Assembly: GCF_009846865.1 (NCBI RefSeq) | Contig: NZ_WUWN01000013.1 | Span: forward strand, 1-64,000 | Direction of reading: 5' to 3' | Length of the DNA stretch: 64,000 nt | Source: Puerhibacterium puerhi | Lineage (GTDB): Bacteria; Actinomycetota; Actinomycetes; Actinomycetales; Cellulomonadaceae | In this document: one piece after another, positions 56,453 to 62,584 of the stretch | How the letters are laid out: each line of letters begins with the position of its first letter | Position numbering within the stretch: the first letter of the stretch is position 1 | Translations under genes and position numbers: made by a program | The notes under the pieces: model-generated | What the model was told of the DNA's origin: nothing | Database searches by the model: none | What the model saw: only the letters and a program-made list of their open reading frames with translations

Positions 56453-57832
56453 TCACCGGGCGCCCGCCGTCGCACCGGCGCGGAACGCCGCGCCCGCGTG
56501 GTCGGGCGCGAGGCGCGGGCCGCCTCCCATGACCCGCTCGCGCAGCGTCGCGCCGTCCGGCGCGTCGGGCAGCAGGCCCCGGCGGCGCAGCTCGGGGGAG
56601 ACCAGGCGCGCGAACCGCTCGAGGTCGGCCGGCCGCACTGCGGCGCAGACGTTGAAGCCGTCGACGTCGGCCTCCTGCTGCCAGCGCTCGAGCTCGTCGA
56701 CCACCGTGCCGGGCGAGCCGGCGATCACCGGCCCGCGCCCGCCGATCGCGACGAACTCGGCCAGGTCCCGCACCGTCCACGTGCGGTCGCCGAGGGTGGT
56801 GAACGACGCGAGCGCCGACTGGTTGGCGTCCGTGGCCACGTGCTCCAGCGGGGCGTCGGGGTCGGCCCCGGCGAGGTCGACGCCGGTCCACCCGCCGAAC
56901 AGGGCCAGCGCCGCCTCGGTGTCCACGTACGCCCGGTACCCCTCGAGCCGTGCCTGCGCCTCGGCGTCGGTGTCCGCGACGACGACGGTGGCCAGGGCGA
57001 ACGTCTTGATCGCGTCGCGCGGGCGGCCGCGCTCGGCCAGCCCGTCGCGGGTCGCGTCGACCCAGCGGCGCACCAGCTGCGGCGTGCCGCCGGAGAAGAA
57101 CACCGCCTCGGCGTGGTCGGTCGCGAACTGCTGGCCGCGCCGCGAGGCGCCGGCCTGGAACAGCAGCGGCGTGCCCTGGGGCCCCGGCGGGGCGAGCGCG
57201 ACGCCCGGCACGGAGAAGTACCGTCCCGCGAACCCTGCCGGGTGCAGCCGCGCGGGGTCGACCACCACGTTCGCGTCGGCGTCGAGCACCAGCGCCCCGT
57301 CGTCGAACGAGCCCTCGAGCAGCCGGTAGACGACCTCCATGTACTCGTCGGCGCGGTCGTAGCGCTCGTCATGCGGGATCTGGGTGCCCAGGCCGAGGTT
57401 GCGCGCCGCCGACTCCTGGTAGCTGGTGACGATGTTCCAGGCCACGCGCCCGCCGGTGAAGTGGTCGAGCGTGGCCAGCGTGCGGGCCAGCAGGTACGGC
57501 TGGAGGTACGTCACCGACGCGGTGACGCCGAAGCCGAGCGAGCGGGTCGCCGCGGCCATCGCGGGCACGGCCACGAGCGGGTCCAGCACCGGGTACTGCA
57601 CGCCGCCGCGGGCGGCGGCCTGCGGCCCGCCGCCGTAGACGTCGTAGACGCCCGGGATGTCGGCGAGGAACAGCGAGGCGAACCCGCCGTCGTCCAGCGT
57701 GCGGGCCAGGTCGGTCCAGTACCGCAGGTCGGTGAACCGGGCGGCGCCCGACTCCGGGTGCCGCCACAGCCCGGGGGACTGGTGGACGGGCACCATCATG
57801 TCGAAGGCGTTGAGCAGGATCGGGCGGGTCAC
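56453..57832 (-). CDS. LLM-class FMN-dependent monooxygenase (NtaA/SfnA/DszA type)
   Basis: 459 aa. Starts RPILLNAFDMMVPVHQSPGLWRHP as in the NtaA/SnaA/DszA subgroup; WTDLARTLDDGGFASLFLAD, then VYDVYGGGPQAA, GRVAWNIVTSYQESAARNLG and GTPLLFQAGASRRGQQFATD are its flavin and substrate signatures. Uses FMNH2 from a separate reductase to oxidise an organosulfur or amine substrate. Being downstream of a SAM riboswitch points to organosulfur (sulfone or sulfonate). GTG 57832 overlaps the MFS stop (GTGA). Confidence 0.88.
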   Translation of the reverse strand: MTRPILLNAFDMMVPVHQSPGLWRHPESGAARFTDLRYWTDLARTLDDGGFASLFLADIPGVYDVYGGGPQAAARGGVQYPVLDPLVAVPAMAAATRSLGFGVTASVTYLQPYLLARTLATLDHFTGGRVAWNIVTSYQESAARNLGLGTQIPHDERYDRADEYMEVVYRLLEGSFDDGALVLDADANVVVDPARLHPAGFAGRYFSVPGVALAPPGPQGTPLLFQAGASRRGQQFATDHAEAVFFSGGTPQLVRRWVDATRDGLAERGRPRDAIKTFALATVVVADTDAEAQARLEGYRAYVDTEAALALFGGWTGVDLAGADPDAPLEHVATDANQSALASFTTLGDRTWTVRDLAEFVAIGGRGPVIAGSPGTVVDELERWQQEADVDGFNVCAAVRPADLERFARLVSPELRRRGLLPDAPDGATLRERVMGGGPRLAPDHAGAAFRAGATAGAR

Positions 57833-59238
57833 AGGGCTCCCTCGGGGGACAGGGCGGGCTCGCGGCGGGCGGCGCGCTCGGCGCGGGCCCGCACGCCGGC
57901 GGGGTCGGCGGCCGCGACGCAGGCGGCCAGGGACAGCAGGCTCAGCAGGGACAGGTAGGCGGCGACCAGCCAGGGCCGCCCGCCGCCGGCGGCGAGCAGC
58001 AGGGCGGCGATCATCGGCATGAAGCCGCCGGCCAGCACGGTGGCCACCTGGTAGGCGATGGTGACGCCGGAGAACCGCACCTGGACGGGGAACTGCTCGG
58101 CGAACCAGGCGGCCTGCGGGCCGTAGACGGCGTCGTGCGCGAGGTTCATGCCGAGGATCACCACGAGCGGCAGCAGGGCCAGCGGGCCGGCGTCGGCGAA
58201 CGCGAACAGCACCCAGCCGAACGCACCGATCGCCACGACGCCGCCGATCGTCACCGGCTTGCGCCCGACGCGGTCGGACAGCCAGCCCCAGAACGGCCCG
58301 GTCACGAGCCCCACCGCCGAGCCGATCATCACCGCGGTGACGCCGGCCTCGGAGTCGCCGCGCTCGGACGTGAGGTAGCTCAGCAGGTAGACGGTGATGA
58401 GGTAGTACACGGCGTTCTGCGCCAGCCGCAGCCCGATGGTCACCACGAGCACGCGCCGGTGGTCGCGCAGCAGCACACGCAGGGGCGCGCGCTCGACCTC
58501 GCCGGCCTCCTTGATCGCGGTGAACTCGGGGGCGTCGTGCACGCCGAGGCGGATCCACAGCCCGACGGCGACGAGCACCGCGGAGGCGAGGAACGGCAGG
58601 CGCCAGCCGAACGCGGCGAACTGCTCGGCCGTCAGCAGGTGCTGCACGGCGAAGAACGACCCGGACGCCAGGAGCATGCCGGCCGCCGAGCCCACCTGGG
58701 TGAAGGAGCCGAAGAAGCCGCGGTGGCGGGCGGGGGCGTGCTCGACGCTCAGCAGCGCCGACCCGCCCCACTCGGCCCCGGCGGACAGCCCCTGCAGCAC
58801 GCGCAGCGTCACCAGGCCGGCGACCGCCCACCAGCCGACCTGGGCGAAGGTGGGCAGCAGGCCGATGAGGGTGGAGGCGACGCCCATGAGCAGCAGCGAC
58901 GCCACGAGCAGGGACTTGCGCCCGACCCGGTCGCCCAGGTGCCCGGCGACGACGCCGCCGAGCGGGCGCACGACGACGCCGACGGCGAGCGTGGCGAACG
59001 AGGCGATGGTCCCCGCCAGCGGCGAGGCGTCGGGGAAGAACTGGCCGTTGAACACCAGCGCGGCGGCGGTGCCGTAGAGGTAGTAGTCGTACCACTCGAT
59101 GGTGGTGCCGACGAAGGCGCTGGCCAGCACGCGGCGCTTGCCGGCCCAGGGCCGGGCGCCCGTGGGGGCGCCCGCGGCGTCCGTGGCGACGGCGTGCCCG
59201 CCGGGCGGCGTGGCGGGGGTGGGGGGTGCGGCGGTCAT
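57829..59238 (-). CDS. MFS transporter, metabolite:H+ symporter type
   Basis: 469 aa, twelve membrane helices. Family signature GTTIEWYDYYLYGTAAALVF in helix 1, GHLGDRVGRKSLLVASLLLM and LRVLQGLSAGAEWGGSALLS. This branch (KgtP/ProP/ShiA-like) carries small organic anions or zwitterions. In this operon it presumably imports the sulfur compound attacked by the two flavin enzymes. Overlaps both neighbours by four bases. Confidence 0.88.
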   Translation of the reverse strand: MTAAPPTPATPPGGHAVATDAAGAPTGARPWAGKRRVLASAFVGTTIEWYDYYLYGTAAALVFNGQFFPDASPLAGTIASFATLAVGVVVRPLGGVVAGHLGDRVGRKSLLVASLLLMGVASTLIGLLPTFAQVGWWAVAGLVTLRVLQGLSAGAEWGGSALLSVEHAPARHRGFFGSFTQVGSAAGMLLASGSFFAVQHLLTAEQFAAFGWRLPFLASAVLVAVGLWIRLGVHDAPEFTAIKEAGEVERAPLRVLLRDHRRVLVVTIGLRLAQNAVYYLITVYLLSYLTSERGDSEAGVTAVMIGSAVGLVTGPFWGWLSDRVGRKPVTIGGVVAIGAFGWVLFAFADAGPLALLPLVVILGMNLAHDAVYGPQAAWFAEQFPVQVRFSGVTIAYQVATVLAGGFMPMIAALLLAAGGGRPWLVAAYLSLLSLLSLAACVAAADPAGVRARAERAARREPALSPEGAL

Positions 59239-60536
59239 CGCGCGGCCTCCTTCGGGGCGCGGGCGGGCGCGTCGCCGATGGCGTTGAGGCCCTCGGGCAG
59301 CGTCCCGTTGATCCAGTAGTCGCCGAGCGCGCGGGCGCGGAAGGCGATGGGGTTGTGGGTGGCGACGGTCTGGGCGTTGCGCCAGTGCCGGTCCAGGCCC
59401 TTGGCCGTGGACGTGGCCGACGCGCCGACCGTGAGGAACAGGTCCTGGGCGGCCCCGAGGGCGAGCTCGGGGACGGTGACCTGCGCGTGCTCGACGGCGA
59501 TCTCGCCGTCGTGCAGCTCGGTGGGCACCGGCCCGTCGTGGCCGGGGCGGTCGGCCCCGACGCGGGCGGCGGCGGCGATGCCGTCGTCGAGCGCCCGGGC
59601 GGCGTGCAGCACCACCGCCTCGGCGGCGTAGGCCTTCGCGGCGATCCGCCCGGTCGCCTCCTGGATGAGGGGGTCCTCGGCGAACGGCAGGCCCAGCCCG
59701 GTGTTGAACGTGCGCCGCCGCGCGGCCACCGTGGCGGCGGCGTCGCGCCGCGCGGCGTGGGCGATCCCGGCCAGCACGGCGAGCAGCACGAGCTGGAAGA
59801 AGGCTGCTTCGTGCACGGCCTCCGGCGAGCCCGCCACCCGGTCGAACAGCGCGTCCTCGGGCACCGGGACGCCGTCGAACCGCGCGGTGCCCGTGCCGGT
59901 GAGCCGCTGGCCGAAGCCGTCCCAGTCGTCGAGCACCGTGACGCCCGGCGCGTCGGTGGCGACGACGGCGAAGCGCCGCCCGTCCTGCCCGTCGAGCGCG
60001 GCCGAGACGCGGGTGTAGTCGGCGAAGATCGTGCCCGTCGTGTAGTACTTCTCGCCGTCGAGCACCCAGCCGTCCGCGGTGCGGCGCAGCGTGGTGCTCA
60101 GCGTGCCGAGCCGGTTGCCGCCCTTCTCGGTGGAGGCGTTGCCGACGGTGCGCCCGGCCAGGACCCGCGGGTACCACACCGCCTGCAGGCGCTCGGGCGC
60201 GAAGCGCAGCGACTCCACGAACCCGAGGTGCGAGCGGTACAGGTGCGCCACGTTCGAGTCCGCGGCCGCGAGCTCGACGAGCAGCCGCGTGACGGTCTCC
60301 ACGCTGGCGCCCGGCCCGCCGTGCTCGGCCGGCACGCGCAGCGTGCCGAAGCCGGCCTCGTCGAGCCGGCGGACCGGCTCGAACGGCAGCTCGCGGTCCT
60401 GGTCGCGGCGCAGGGCACCGGCGGCGATCTCCTCGAACAGCGGCCGGAACGTCCGACACAGCGCGTCGTGGTCGGCGGGCAGCCGCGGGGGCGTGGCGGC
60501 GGTGCGGGCGCGGACGGCGGACGTCGCTGCGGTCAT
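59235..60536 (-). CDS. Acyl-CoA-dehydrogenase-family flavin monooxygenase (SfnB/DszC-like)
   Basis: 433 aa. Acyl-CoA dehydrogenase fold: DEAGFGTLRVPAEHGGPGAS, GNASTEKGGNRLGTL, DGWVLDGEKYYTTGTIFADY, and C-terminal ATSTAKGLDRHWRNAQTVAT. The catalytic Glu of true dehydrogenases is not evident, and the THNPIAFRARALGDYWINGT ending is that of the SfnB/DszC sulfur-acquisition group, which use FMNH2 and O2. ATG 60536 has a GAGGAGAAGGGA site that is half buried in a leader hairpin. First gene after the SAM-I riboswitch. Confidence 0.86.
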   Translation of the reverse strand: MTAATSAVRARTAATPPRLPADHDALCRTFRPLFEEIAAGALRRDQDRELPFEPVRRLDEAGFGTLRVPAEHGGPGASVETVTRLLVELAAADSNVAHLYRSHLGFVESLRFAPERLQAVWYPRVLAGRTVGNASTEKGGNRLGTLSTTLRRTADGWVLDGEKYYTTGTIFADYTRVSAALDGQDGRRFAVVATDAPGVTVLDDWDGFGQRLTGTGTARFDGVPVPEDALFDRVAGSPEAVHEAAFFQLVLLAVLAGIAHAARRDAAATVAARRRTFNTGLGLPFAEDPLIQEATGRIAAKAYAAEAVVLHAARALDDGIAAAARVGADRPGHDGPVPTELHDGEIAVEHAQVTVPELALGAAQDLFLTVGASATSTAKGLDRHWRNAQTVATHNPIAFRARALGDYWINGTLPEGLNAIGDAPARAPKEAAR

Positions 60537-60548
60537 CGGGCGGTCCCT

Positions 60549-60566
60549 TCTCCTCGTCCGAGGAGA
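60549..60566 (-). promoter_or_regulatory. Shine-Dalgarno-sequestering hairpin
   Basis: TCTCCTC/GAGGAGA 7-bp perfect stem with a GGAC loop on the minus strand. Its 3' arm is the first part of the ribosome site GAGGAGAAGGGA, whose end is 7 bases before ATG 60536. A likely expression platform acting on translation. Confidence 0.6.
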
Positions 60567-60640
60567 CCCGGGCCGCGCAGGCCGGACGGCAGCCGGGACC
60601 GCCGTCCGCGCAGGGGTGCGCGCGACCGACACGGATCCGG

Positions 60641-60733
60641 GATCTCCATCGGTCCTGGCGTTAGCACCTACTCGGGCGCTGCCCGAGGGTTGCTGCGGCG
60701 TCGACGAGCCAGGTCTCTCGGCCGCTCTGGATG
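60641..60733 (-). ncRNA. SAM-I riboswitch
   Basis: Reading the minus strand from 60733: CATCCAGAGCGGCCGAGAG, then ACCTGGCTCGTCGACGCCG, CAGCAACC, a P3 hairpin (CTCGGGC/GCCCGAG), AGGTGCTAA, CGCCAGGACCGATGG. This keeps the S-box consensus GAGnGG...GAGnGA...GGCnC...GAcnCC...GCAACC...AGGTGCTAA, and the ends pair as P1 (CCATC with GATGG). It senses S-adenosylmethionine and normally switches off sulfur genes when SAM is plentiful. It lies 104 bases upstream of the operon start. Confidence 0.92.
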
Positions 60734-60746
60734 GTGTGCGAGAAGG

Positions 60747-60752
60747 AACGTA
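60747..60752 (-). promoter_or_regulatory. Candidate -10 of the riboswitch transcript
   Basis: TACGTT on the minus strand, a TANNNT match. The predicted start near 60740 is about seven bases before the riboswitch begins, a sensible arrangement. No clear -35. Confidence 0.45.
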
Positions 60753-60810
60753 CCCGACGATCCCGTCCGGTGGAAGGAACCTTCTCACTCAGTGGGACGC
60801 GCATCCAGGA

Positions 60811-60877: not shown

Positions 60878-62584
60878 TCAGAGCGCCGCCGCGAGCGCCC
60901 GCCCGGTGACGCGGCCGGTGTGCAGGCAGCCGCCGAGGAACGTGCCCTCCAGCGCGCGGTGCCCGTGCACGCCGCCGCCGCCGAACCCGGCGGCCTCGCC
61001 GACCGCCCACAGCCCCTCGAGCGCCGCGCCGTCGGGGCGCAGCACGCGCCCGGCGGGGTCGCACCACAGGCCGCCGAGCGTCTTGCGGGTGAGCACGGAC
61101 AGCCGCACCGCGAGCAGCGGCCCGTCCTTCGGGTCGGTGAGCCGCCGCGGCGGCGCCACGCGCATGCGCCGGTCGACCAGGTAGCGGCGCGCGGCGGCGG
61201 TGGCCACGACCTGGGGGTCCTTGCCCAGCCCCGAGGCCACCTGGGCGTCGCGCAGGTCGACGGCGGCCGCGAGGTCGCCCGCGTCGACGTGGCCGGCCGA
61301 GCCCGGGGTCGCCTCGGTCAGGGCGTTCATCCGGGCGGCCAGCTCGGCGGGGGTGGCGGCCCAGAGGAACTCCGGGGACTCCTTCGCGAAGCGCGCCACG
61401 GGCCCCACGGCGCCCGGCAGCACGCGCTGGGCGAGCAGCCGCACGTCGCGGCCGGTGAGGTCCGGGTTCTGCTCCGAGCCCGACAGCGCGAACTCGGTGT
61501 CCATGATCGTGGCGTTGAGCACGAACCAGGAGTGGTCGTCCCCGCGGGCGGTGAGGTGCTGGAGCGCGCCGAGCGCGTCGAAGCCCGGGAACAGCGGCGC
61601 GGGCAGGCGGTGGCCGTCGGCGTCGAGCCACAGCGCCGACGGCCCGGCCAGGATGCGGATGCCGTGGCGCGACCACACGGGGGAGTGGTTCGCGATGCCC
61701 TCGGGGTAGTGCCACATGCGGTCCTCGTGCACCAGCGCGGCGCCGGCGGCGCCCGCGGTGGTGAGCATGAGGCCGTCGGTGGAGTCGGGCACGCCCGAGA
61801 GCATCCGGCGCGGCAGCCGGCCGTGGGTCAGGTCCCACCGGGCGCGGGCGAGGTCGTGGTTGGCCCCGATGCCGCCGGAGGCGACGACGACGGCCTGGGC
61901 GCCGAGCTCGACCTCGCCGACGACGTCGCGCGACGTCGGGCGCCCGCGACCGCCGAACGGGGCGCCGGCCGGGGCCGGGTCGTCGGCCAGGACCTGGGCC
62001 CGGACCCCGGTCACGCGGCCGTCGGTGACCACGAGGTCGGTGACCCGGTGGCGGAAGCGGATCTCCAGCAGCCCGGCGTCGCGGGCCTGCCGGGCCGCCG
62101 CGACGAACGGCGCGAGCACGGCCGGGCCGGTGCCCCACGTGACGTGGAACCGCGGCACGGAGTTGCCGTGCCCGCCGGCGGGGTACCCGCCGCGCTCGGC
62201 CCACTGCACGAGCGGGAACCAGCGCACCCCGCGCTCGTGCAGCCACGAGCGCATGCCGCCCGCGGCGAACTCGACGAACTGCTCCGCCCAGGCGTAGCCG
62301 TGCCGGTCGGGGCCCTCGCCGCGGTCCGCGCCGTCGGCGAACGCGGCCGACCCGAGCCAGTCGCTCCACGCGAGCTCGGCGGAGTCGCGCACGCCCAGGC
62401 GTCGCTGCTCCGGGGAGCCCACCAGGAACAGGCCGCCGAACGACCACCAGGCCTGCCCGCCGAGGCTCGCGGCCGGCTCCTGGTCGAGCACGACGACGCG
62501 GCGTCCCGCCGCGGTGAGCTCGGTGGCGGTGACGAGCCCGGCCAGGCCGGCCCCGATGACGACGACGTCGGCGTCCGTGGACAT
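60878..62584 (-). CDS. KstD-like FAD-binding dehydrogenase
   Basis: 568 aa. FAD-binding domain DVVVIGAGLAGLVTATELTA, LGGQAWWSFGGLFLVGSPEQ and C-terminal LWAVGEAAGFGGGGVHGHRA with LEGTFLGGCLHTGRVTGRAL. This is the fumarate reductase/3-ketosteroid dehydrogenase superfamily; close relatives are annotated only as FAD-binding dehydrogenases. Substrate unknown. ATG 62584 has TACGCT (62591-62596, minus strand) six bases upstream, so it is leaderless and a separate unit from the sulfur operon, although on the same strand. Confidence 0.86.
   Translation of the reverse strand: MSTDADVVVIGAGLAGLVTATELTAAGRRVVVLDQEPAASLGGQAWWSFGGLFLVGSPEQRRLGVRDSAELAWSDWLGSAAFADGADRGEGPDRHGYAWAEQFVEFAAGGMRSWLHERGVRWFPLVQWAERGGYPAGGHGNSVPRFHVTWGTGPAVLAPFVAAARQARDAGLLEIRFRHRVTDLVVTDGRVTGVRAQVLADDPAPAGAPFGGRGRPTSRDVVGEVELGAQAVVVASGGIGANHDLARARWDLTHGRLPRRMLSGVPDSTDGLMLTTAGAAGAALVHEDRMWHYPEGIANHSPVWSRHGIRILAGPSALWLDADGHRLPAPLFPGFDALGALQHLTARGDDHSWFVLNATIMDTEFALSGSEQNPDLTGRDVRLLAQRVLPGAVGPVARFAKESPEFLWAATPAELAARMNALTEATPGSAGHVDAGDLAAAVDLRDAQVASGLGKDPQVVATAAARRYLVDRRMRVAPPRRLTDPKDGPLLAVRLSVLTRKTLGGLWCDPAGRVLRPDGAALEGLWAVGEAAGFGGGGVHGHRALEGTFLGGCLHTGRVTGRALAAAL

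Follow-up and report, generated by a model that had tools for sequence, protein, structure and literature searches.

The window analyzed here is a stretch of 64,000 nucleotides at the start of a contig of Puerhibacterium puerhi. Its minus strand carries a SAM-I (S-box) riboswitch aptamer (60643..60737) followed by an operon of three genes. The first gene (59235..60536) encodes a SfnB-like flavoprotein of 433 aa with the acyl-CoA dehydrogenase fold, the second (57829..59238) an MHS-type transporter of the MFS (469 aa), and the third (56453..57832), which starts with GTG, an LLM-class FMN-dependent monooxygenase (459 aa). The genes overlap by four bases each, ATGA between the SfnB and MFS genes and GTGA between the MFS and LLM genes, as the initial annotation had described; its range for the whole unit (56453-60752) is off by no more than a few bases at the 5′ end. 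The operon contains neither an ABC importer gene nor a flavin reductase gene, and no flavin reductase match was found in the whole window. The riboswitch is immediately preceded, on its own strand, by a gene for an FAD-binding dehydrogenase (60878-62584; NF009472, 781 bits, above the cut-off), and a gene of similar length is found at the corresponding position of the congener (L156:3897-5603).

Families of the encoded proteins

The best match of the flavoprotein is the SfnB equivalog TIGR04022, at 288.3 bits and under the cut-off of 430.9, while the DszC model NF043015 yields 113.6 bits, under its cut-off of 850. The closest relatives in the PDB are thermophilic enzymes of the TdsC/DszC type and the methanesulfinate monooxygenase 6u76, all at about 115 bits. 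The protein thus shares its fold and its best family match with the SfnB and DszC/MsuC-type flavin monooxygenases but scores well below the SfnB equivalog cut-off, and its first description as SfnB/DszC-like was right in outline.

The transporter matches the metabolite/H+ symporter family TIGR00883 with 406.9 bits, under the cut-off of 443.45, and passes the Pfam cut-offs of MFS_1 and Sugar_tr; its description as an MHS-type transporter is supported. The shikimate transporter model gives it 363 bits, and its PDB relatives give no hint of the substrate. The MHS symporters are mostly carriers of carboxylates and zwitterions, a point against an organosulfur substrate.

The LLM protein scores 477.1 bits against the NtaA/DmoA family TIGR03860, above the cut-off of 279.7. 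Its nearest solved relative is DmoA (6ak1), with 48% identity over 451 residues, followed by LadA (42%), HcbA1 (39%), riboflavin lyase (38%) and DszA (34%); SsuD, MsuD and SfnG give 71 bits or less. In a maximum-likelihood tree it belongs to a clade of 14 actinobacterial proteins with a support of 100/100. The sister of this clade (support 92/69) contains DmoA and other SfnB-linked LLM proteins, and the window's protein falls outside it. By sequence, therefore, the enzyme is DmoA-like, and it differs from DmoA itself in its own actinobacterial clade of 14 sequences and in its importer and SfnB partner. The earlier label, NtaA/DszA-like LLM, was correct as to the monooxygenase class; scores and tree rule out DszA and NtaA themselves.

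The SAM-I aptamer and the leader

A cmscan search of the whole window returned RF00162 as the sole Rfam match above the gathering score. The match is full length (model positions 1-108) and reaches 62.5 bits (E 4e-12) against a gathering score of 44.4 bits; it runs from 60737 to 60643 on the minus strand, inside the interval 60600-60760 in which an aptamer had been expected. The P1 helix (CCAUC/GAUGG), the kink-turn, the core (GCAACC and GGUGC) and the pseudoknot (CCUGGC/GCCAGG) are all present. In an alignment of the 14 aptamers located upstream of homologous SfnB genes, all five P1 pairs are intact in every member. Covariation in P1 and P2 is weak across this set, which varies little, and double changes occur at one pair. 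The aptamer, together with the gene overlaps, is far beyond what chance would produce.

The leader between the aptamer and the start codon (60537..60642, minus strand) forms a spacer of 106 nt and may act as the expression platform. A Shine-Dalgarno-like sequence, GAGGAGAAGG, is placed at 60555-60546 within a 7-bp hairpin (UCUCCUC-GGAC-GAGGAGA, 60566-60549). No intrinsic terminator was found in the leader, so the control step is probably translational. In the folding models the Shine-Dalgarno region is predicted to be paired in both states, and no change in its accessibility is seen when P1 is broken.

Two candidate elements of the leader were not retained. The anti-P1 helix ACCGA/UCGGU was set aside as an unproven expression platform, its pairing in the window being no better than in shuffled sequences (p 0.36). 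The anti-P1 sequence is kept in four leaders and forms in unconstrained folds, and in two other leaders the pairing is suggestive against shuffles (p 0.07 and 0.016). A leader peptide starting in P1 (MEIPD...) was rejected because its frame does not stand in the same relation to the SfnB gene in the congener as in the window.

Several relatives, as well as two further sites of the host genome on contigs 70 and 11, carry a Shine-Dalgarno-like sequence that is part of the 3′ strand of P1 or follows it immediately. This arrangement would allow P1 to occlude the ribosome-binding sequence directly; the operon of the window, in contrast, has the 106-nt spacer instead.

SAM-riboswitch sites and cassettes in the host genome and in relatives

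The host genome contains three SAM-I-like sites and six SAM-IV sites. Besides the aptamer of the window, a SAM-I-like site on contig 70 (44.6 bits) precedes a gene for a MetE-like methyltransferase, and one on contig 11 (28.5 bits, below the cut-off) precedes a rhodanese-sulfhydrylase pair. Three SAM-IV sites are found on contig 11 (17591-17709, 15809-15921 and 8427-8540), two of them upstream of LLM and ABC genes and one before a cysteine-desulfurase-like gene. The other three lie on contig 23 (23176-23289) before an LLM-like gene, on contig 40 (4245-4375) before a Flavin_Reduct-LLM-LLM-MetE-like run, and on contig 56 (58205-58321) near an HbpS-like gene. Four of the six SAM-IV sites thus stand before genes for LLM proteins or ABC binding proteins.

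The region 17591-17954 of contig 11 holds a SAM-IV site (minus strand) and a weak SAM-I site (plus strand) in divergent orientation, between the cysteine-desulfurase-like gene and the rhodanese-sulfhydrylase pair. SAM-IV and SAM-I sites paired divergently in this way, no more than 400 nt apart, were counted in 22 of 60 genomes. Contigs 70 (1-780) and 40 (1-900) end inside nearly identical genes for a MetE-like catalytic domain, one behind SAM-I (contig 70) and the other behind LLM genes (contig 40); these are probably copies of one duplicated gene at which the assembly breaks.

Flavin reductases are encoded elsewhere in the host genome, by three Flavin_Reduct genes (contigs 23, 40 and 1) and by an SsuE-like gene (contig 23), so the operon needs no reductase of its own. 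Among 297 sampled genomes of the order, 17 contain an ortholog of the MFS gene, and in every one of the 17 its neighbour is the LLM gene. A divergent flavin reductase gene (PF01613) lies beside the MFS-LLM pair in nine of these genomes, and in a tenth it is divergent upstream of the SfnB gene. The initial annotation had contrasted the missing reductase with known organosulfur operons, which more often carry one; given the reductases in trans and the divergent ones in relatives, a meaning for its absence from the operon was rejected.

The order SfnB-MFS-LLM is conserved across Micrococcales-type actinobacteria. It is found in the congener, whose SfnB protein is 92% identical to that of the window, and also in Citricoccus, Rothia, Microbacterium, Curtobacterium sp. 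S6, Kocuria sp. 36, Yaniella and Arthrobacter sp. H14. Nesterenkonia has a MetNIQ-like ABC importer ahead of this SfnB-LLM pair in place of the MFS, with SAM-I at the head of the operon, and SsuA-type binding proteins adjoin homologous pairs there. The replacement of the MFS by a MetNIQ-like importer indicates that the importer is exchangeable. The MFS transporter had been contrasted with the more usual ABC importer; its cassette recurs in many genomes, and the MFS is a lineage marker. ABC importer and reductase genes are indeed missing from the operon, as had been stated, but this is no sign of a new pathway. Arthrobacter rhombi has a rearranged cassette (L031:3370-7447) in the order SAM-I, MFS, SfnB, LLM, directly after a SAM-I-SfnB-LLM operon.

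The association with riboswitches was counted in 33 related loci with homologous SfnB genes. SAM-I lies directly upstream of the SfnB gene in 14 of them and at the head of its operon in 11, which gives 25 loci in total. In a further lineage, a SAM-IV aptamer (L187:1415-1531, 80.5 bits) ends 36 nt before the MFS start codon of the orthologous MFS-LLM pair. Two related but distinct classes of SAM aptamer therefore serve the same genes in different lineages, and this makes a sulfur role much likelier than it would be from enzyme homology. The argument from the riboswitch to sulfur, already made when the operon was first described, is strengthened by these loci.

The association is not universal. 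Even a permissive search detected no SAM riboswitch of any class at cassettes of Rothia, Kocuria, Curtobacterium and Microbacterium (L006, L007, L008, L010, L011 and L012), and the leaders examined in six additional genomes likewise showed none. The link between the enzymes and SAM control is consequently not a fixed one. The genes located just 3′ of the sampled SAM-I sites are metE, MetNIQ-like ABC, rhodanese/sulfhydrylase and SfnB types. SAM-I also precedes an acetate-CoA-ligase-like gene in four loci (L032:943-2916, L033, L145 and L151), which in L032 scores 809 bits against PRK00174.

Regulation, substrate and relation to known systems

The operon is real and well conserved, and it is probably induced by sulfur starvation. 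It is very probably a SAM-repressed operon for sulfur scavenging, in which an SfnB-like flavoprotein, an MHS symporter and a DmoA-like LLM monooxygenase act together with FMNH2 from reductases encoded elsewhere. When methionine or SAM is scarce, the SAM-I leader would permit the expression of the three genes; at high SAM it would shut the operon off, and the 4-base overlaps could pass this control along the operon by translational coupling. The MHS-type symporter would then import a small, probably anionic, organosulfur compound. Subsequently, the two reduced-flavin oxygenases, SfnB-like and DmoA-like, would oxidize the compound and cleave its C-S bond, using FMNH2 that flavin reductases from elsewhere in the genome would supply. 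The products would be sulfite or a thiol, available for cysteine and methionine synthesis.

Three kinds of substrate can be considered. The kinship of the two enzymes points to a thioether, sulfoxide or sulfone, which the flavoprotein would S-oxygenate before the DmoA-like enzyme cleaves the C-S bond, in the order of DszC and DszA. The LLM clade is sister to the one that contains DmoA, the SfnB protein is related to DszC, and the MetNIQ-like importer that stands in place of the MFS in Nesterenkonia would suit a methionine-like thioether. Volatile DMS, however, requires no importer, and the LLM protein is only 34% identical to DszA; this reading has slightly less than an even chance of being right. 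An alkanesulfonate or sulfinate, being anionic, would be a fitting cargo for an MHS symporter, and SsuA-type binding proteins stand beside homologous pairs in Nesterenkonia. The SfnB protein, distantly related to the methanesulfinate monooxygenase 6u76 (115 bits), would convert the sulfinate into the sulfonate and the LLM enzyme would desulfonate it, so that the two enzymes together would parallel MsuC and MsuD. The distance of the LLM protein from SsuD, MsuD and SfnG and its closeness to DmoA speak against such a reaction, and this substrate class is rather unlikely.

On the other hand, the operon might degrade a source of carbon or nitrogen free of sulfur, such as an aromatic acid, a chelator or an alkane, with a riboswitch that is vestigial or that tracks some SAM-linked need. 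The score of the MFS against the shikimate transporter model, the sulfur-free substrates of the LLM relatives LadA and HcbA1 and the many cassettes that lack a SAM riboswitch would agree with this. The occurrence of both SAM-I and SAM-IV before these genes in different lineages, the SfnB type of the partner enzyme and the widespread linkage to genes of the SsuA, MetNIQ and LLM types oppose it, which makes a sulfur-free substrate very improbable.

The sulfur-scavenging operon resembles the ssuEADCB and sfn operons of sulfur starvation in combining FMNH2-dependent oxygenases with an importer for organic sulfur. It differs from them in the use of an MFS instead of an ABC importer, in the reductase supplied in trans and in the RNA switch of the SAM type; the adjacent ABC importer and flavin reductase genes of the ssu-type operon are both missing here. 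The riboswitch agrees with the SAM-I (S-box) regulons (RF00162) in its full-length aptamer, in the control of sulfur genes and in the met-type targets elsewhere in the host genome. Those regulons are usually listed with methionine and cysteine genes (PMC3766115), whereas the target here is an organosulfur monooxygenase/MFS operon and the platform has no intrinsic terminator. The SAM-IV regulons (RF00634) are related to it in that SAM-IV stands ahead of the orthologous MFS-LLM pair of L187 and beside other LLM and ABC clusters of the host genome, but the operon of the window uses SAM-I.

In Gordonia alkanivorans 135, SfnB, an acyl-CoA dehydrogenase and a protein of the NtaA/DmoA family are raised with dibenzothiophene compared with sulfate (PMC11852219), and in Pelagibacter the genes behind SAM riboswitches rise under sulfur limitation (PMC5069961). 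A literature search that lacked most subscription journals yielded no paper joining SfnB with a riboswitch, and none, with the same journals outside the search, joining SAM-IV, riboswitch, monooxygenase and sulfur.

Each part of the operon belongs to a known family, and the whole is best placed with the known SAM-riboswitch sulfur regulons, not as a new system. A broader reading can be put forward tentatively and is more doubtful than probable: SfnB, an interchangeable importer and a DmoA-like LLM enzyme may constitute an actinobacterial module for the import and desulfurization of an unrecognized organosulfur source, as part of a large regulon of SAM riboswitches, where SAM-I and SAM-IV leaders stand in for each other before the same genes.

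The substrates of the SfnB-type and DmoA-like enzymes are mostly guessed from homology, and the RNA ties these enzymes to the need for sulfur by independent evidence. The SAM riboswitches before actinobacterial genes for organosulfur uptake and oxidation extend beyond the usual methionine and cysteine targets of the S-box. The presence of SAM-I or SAM-IV before the same genes in different lineages provides a natural test of riboswitch-class exchange.
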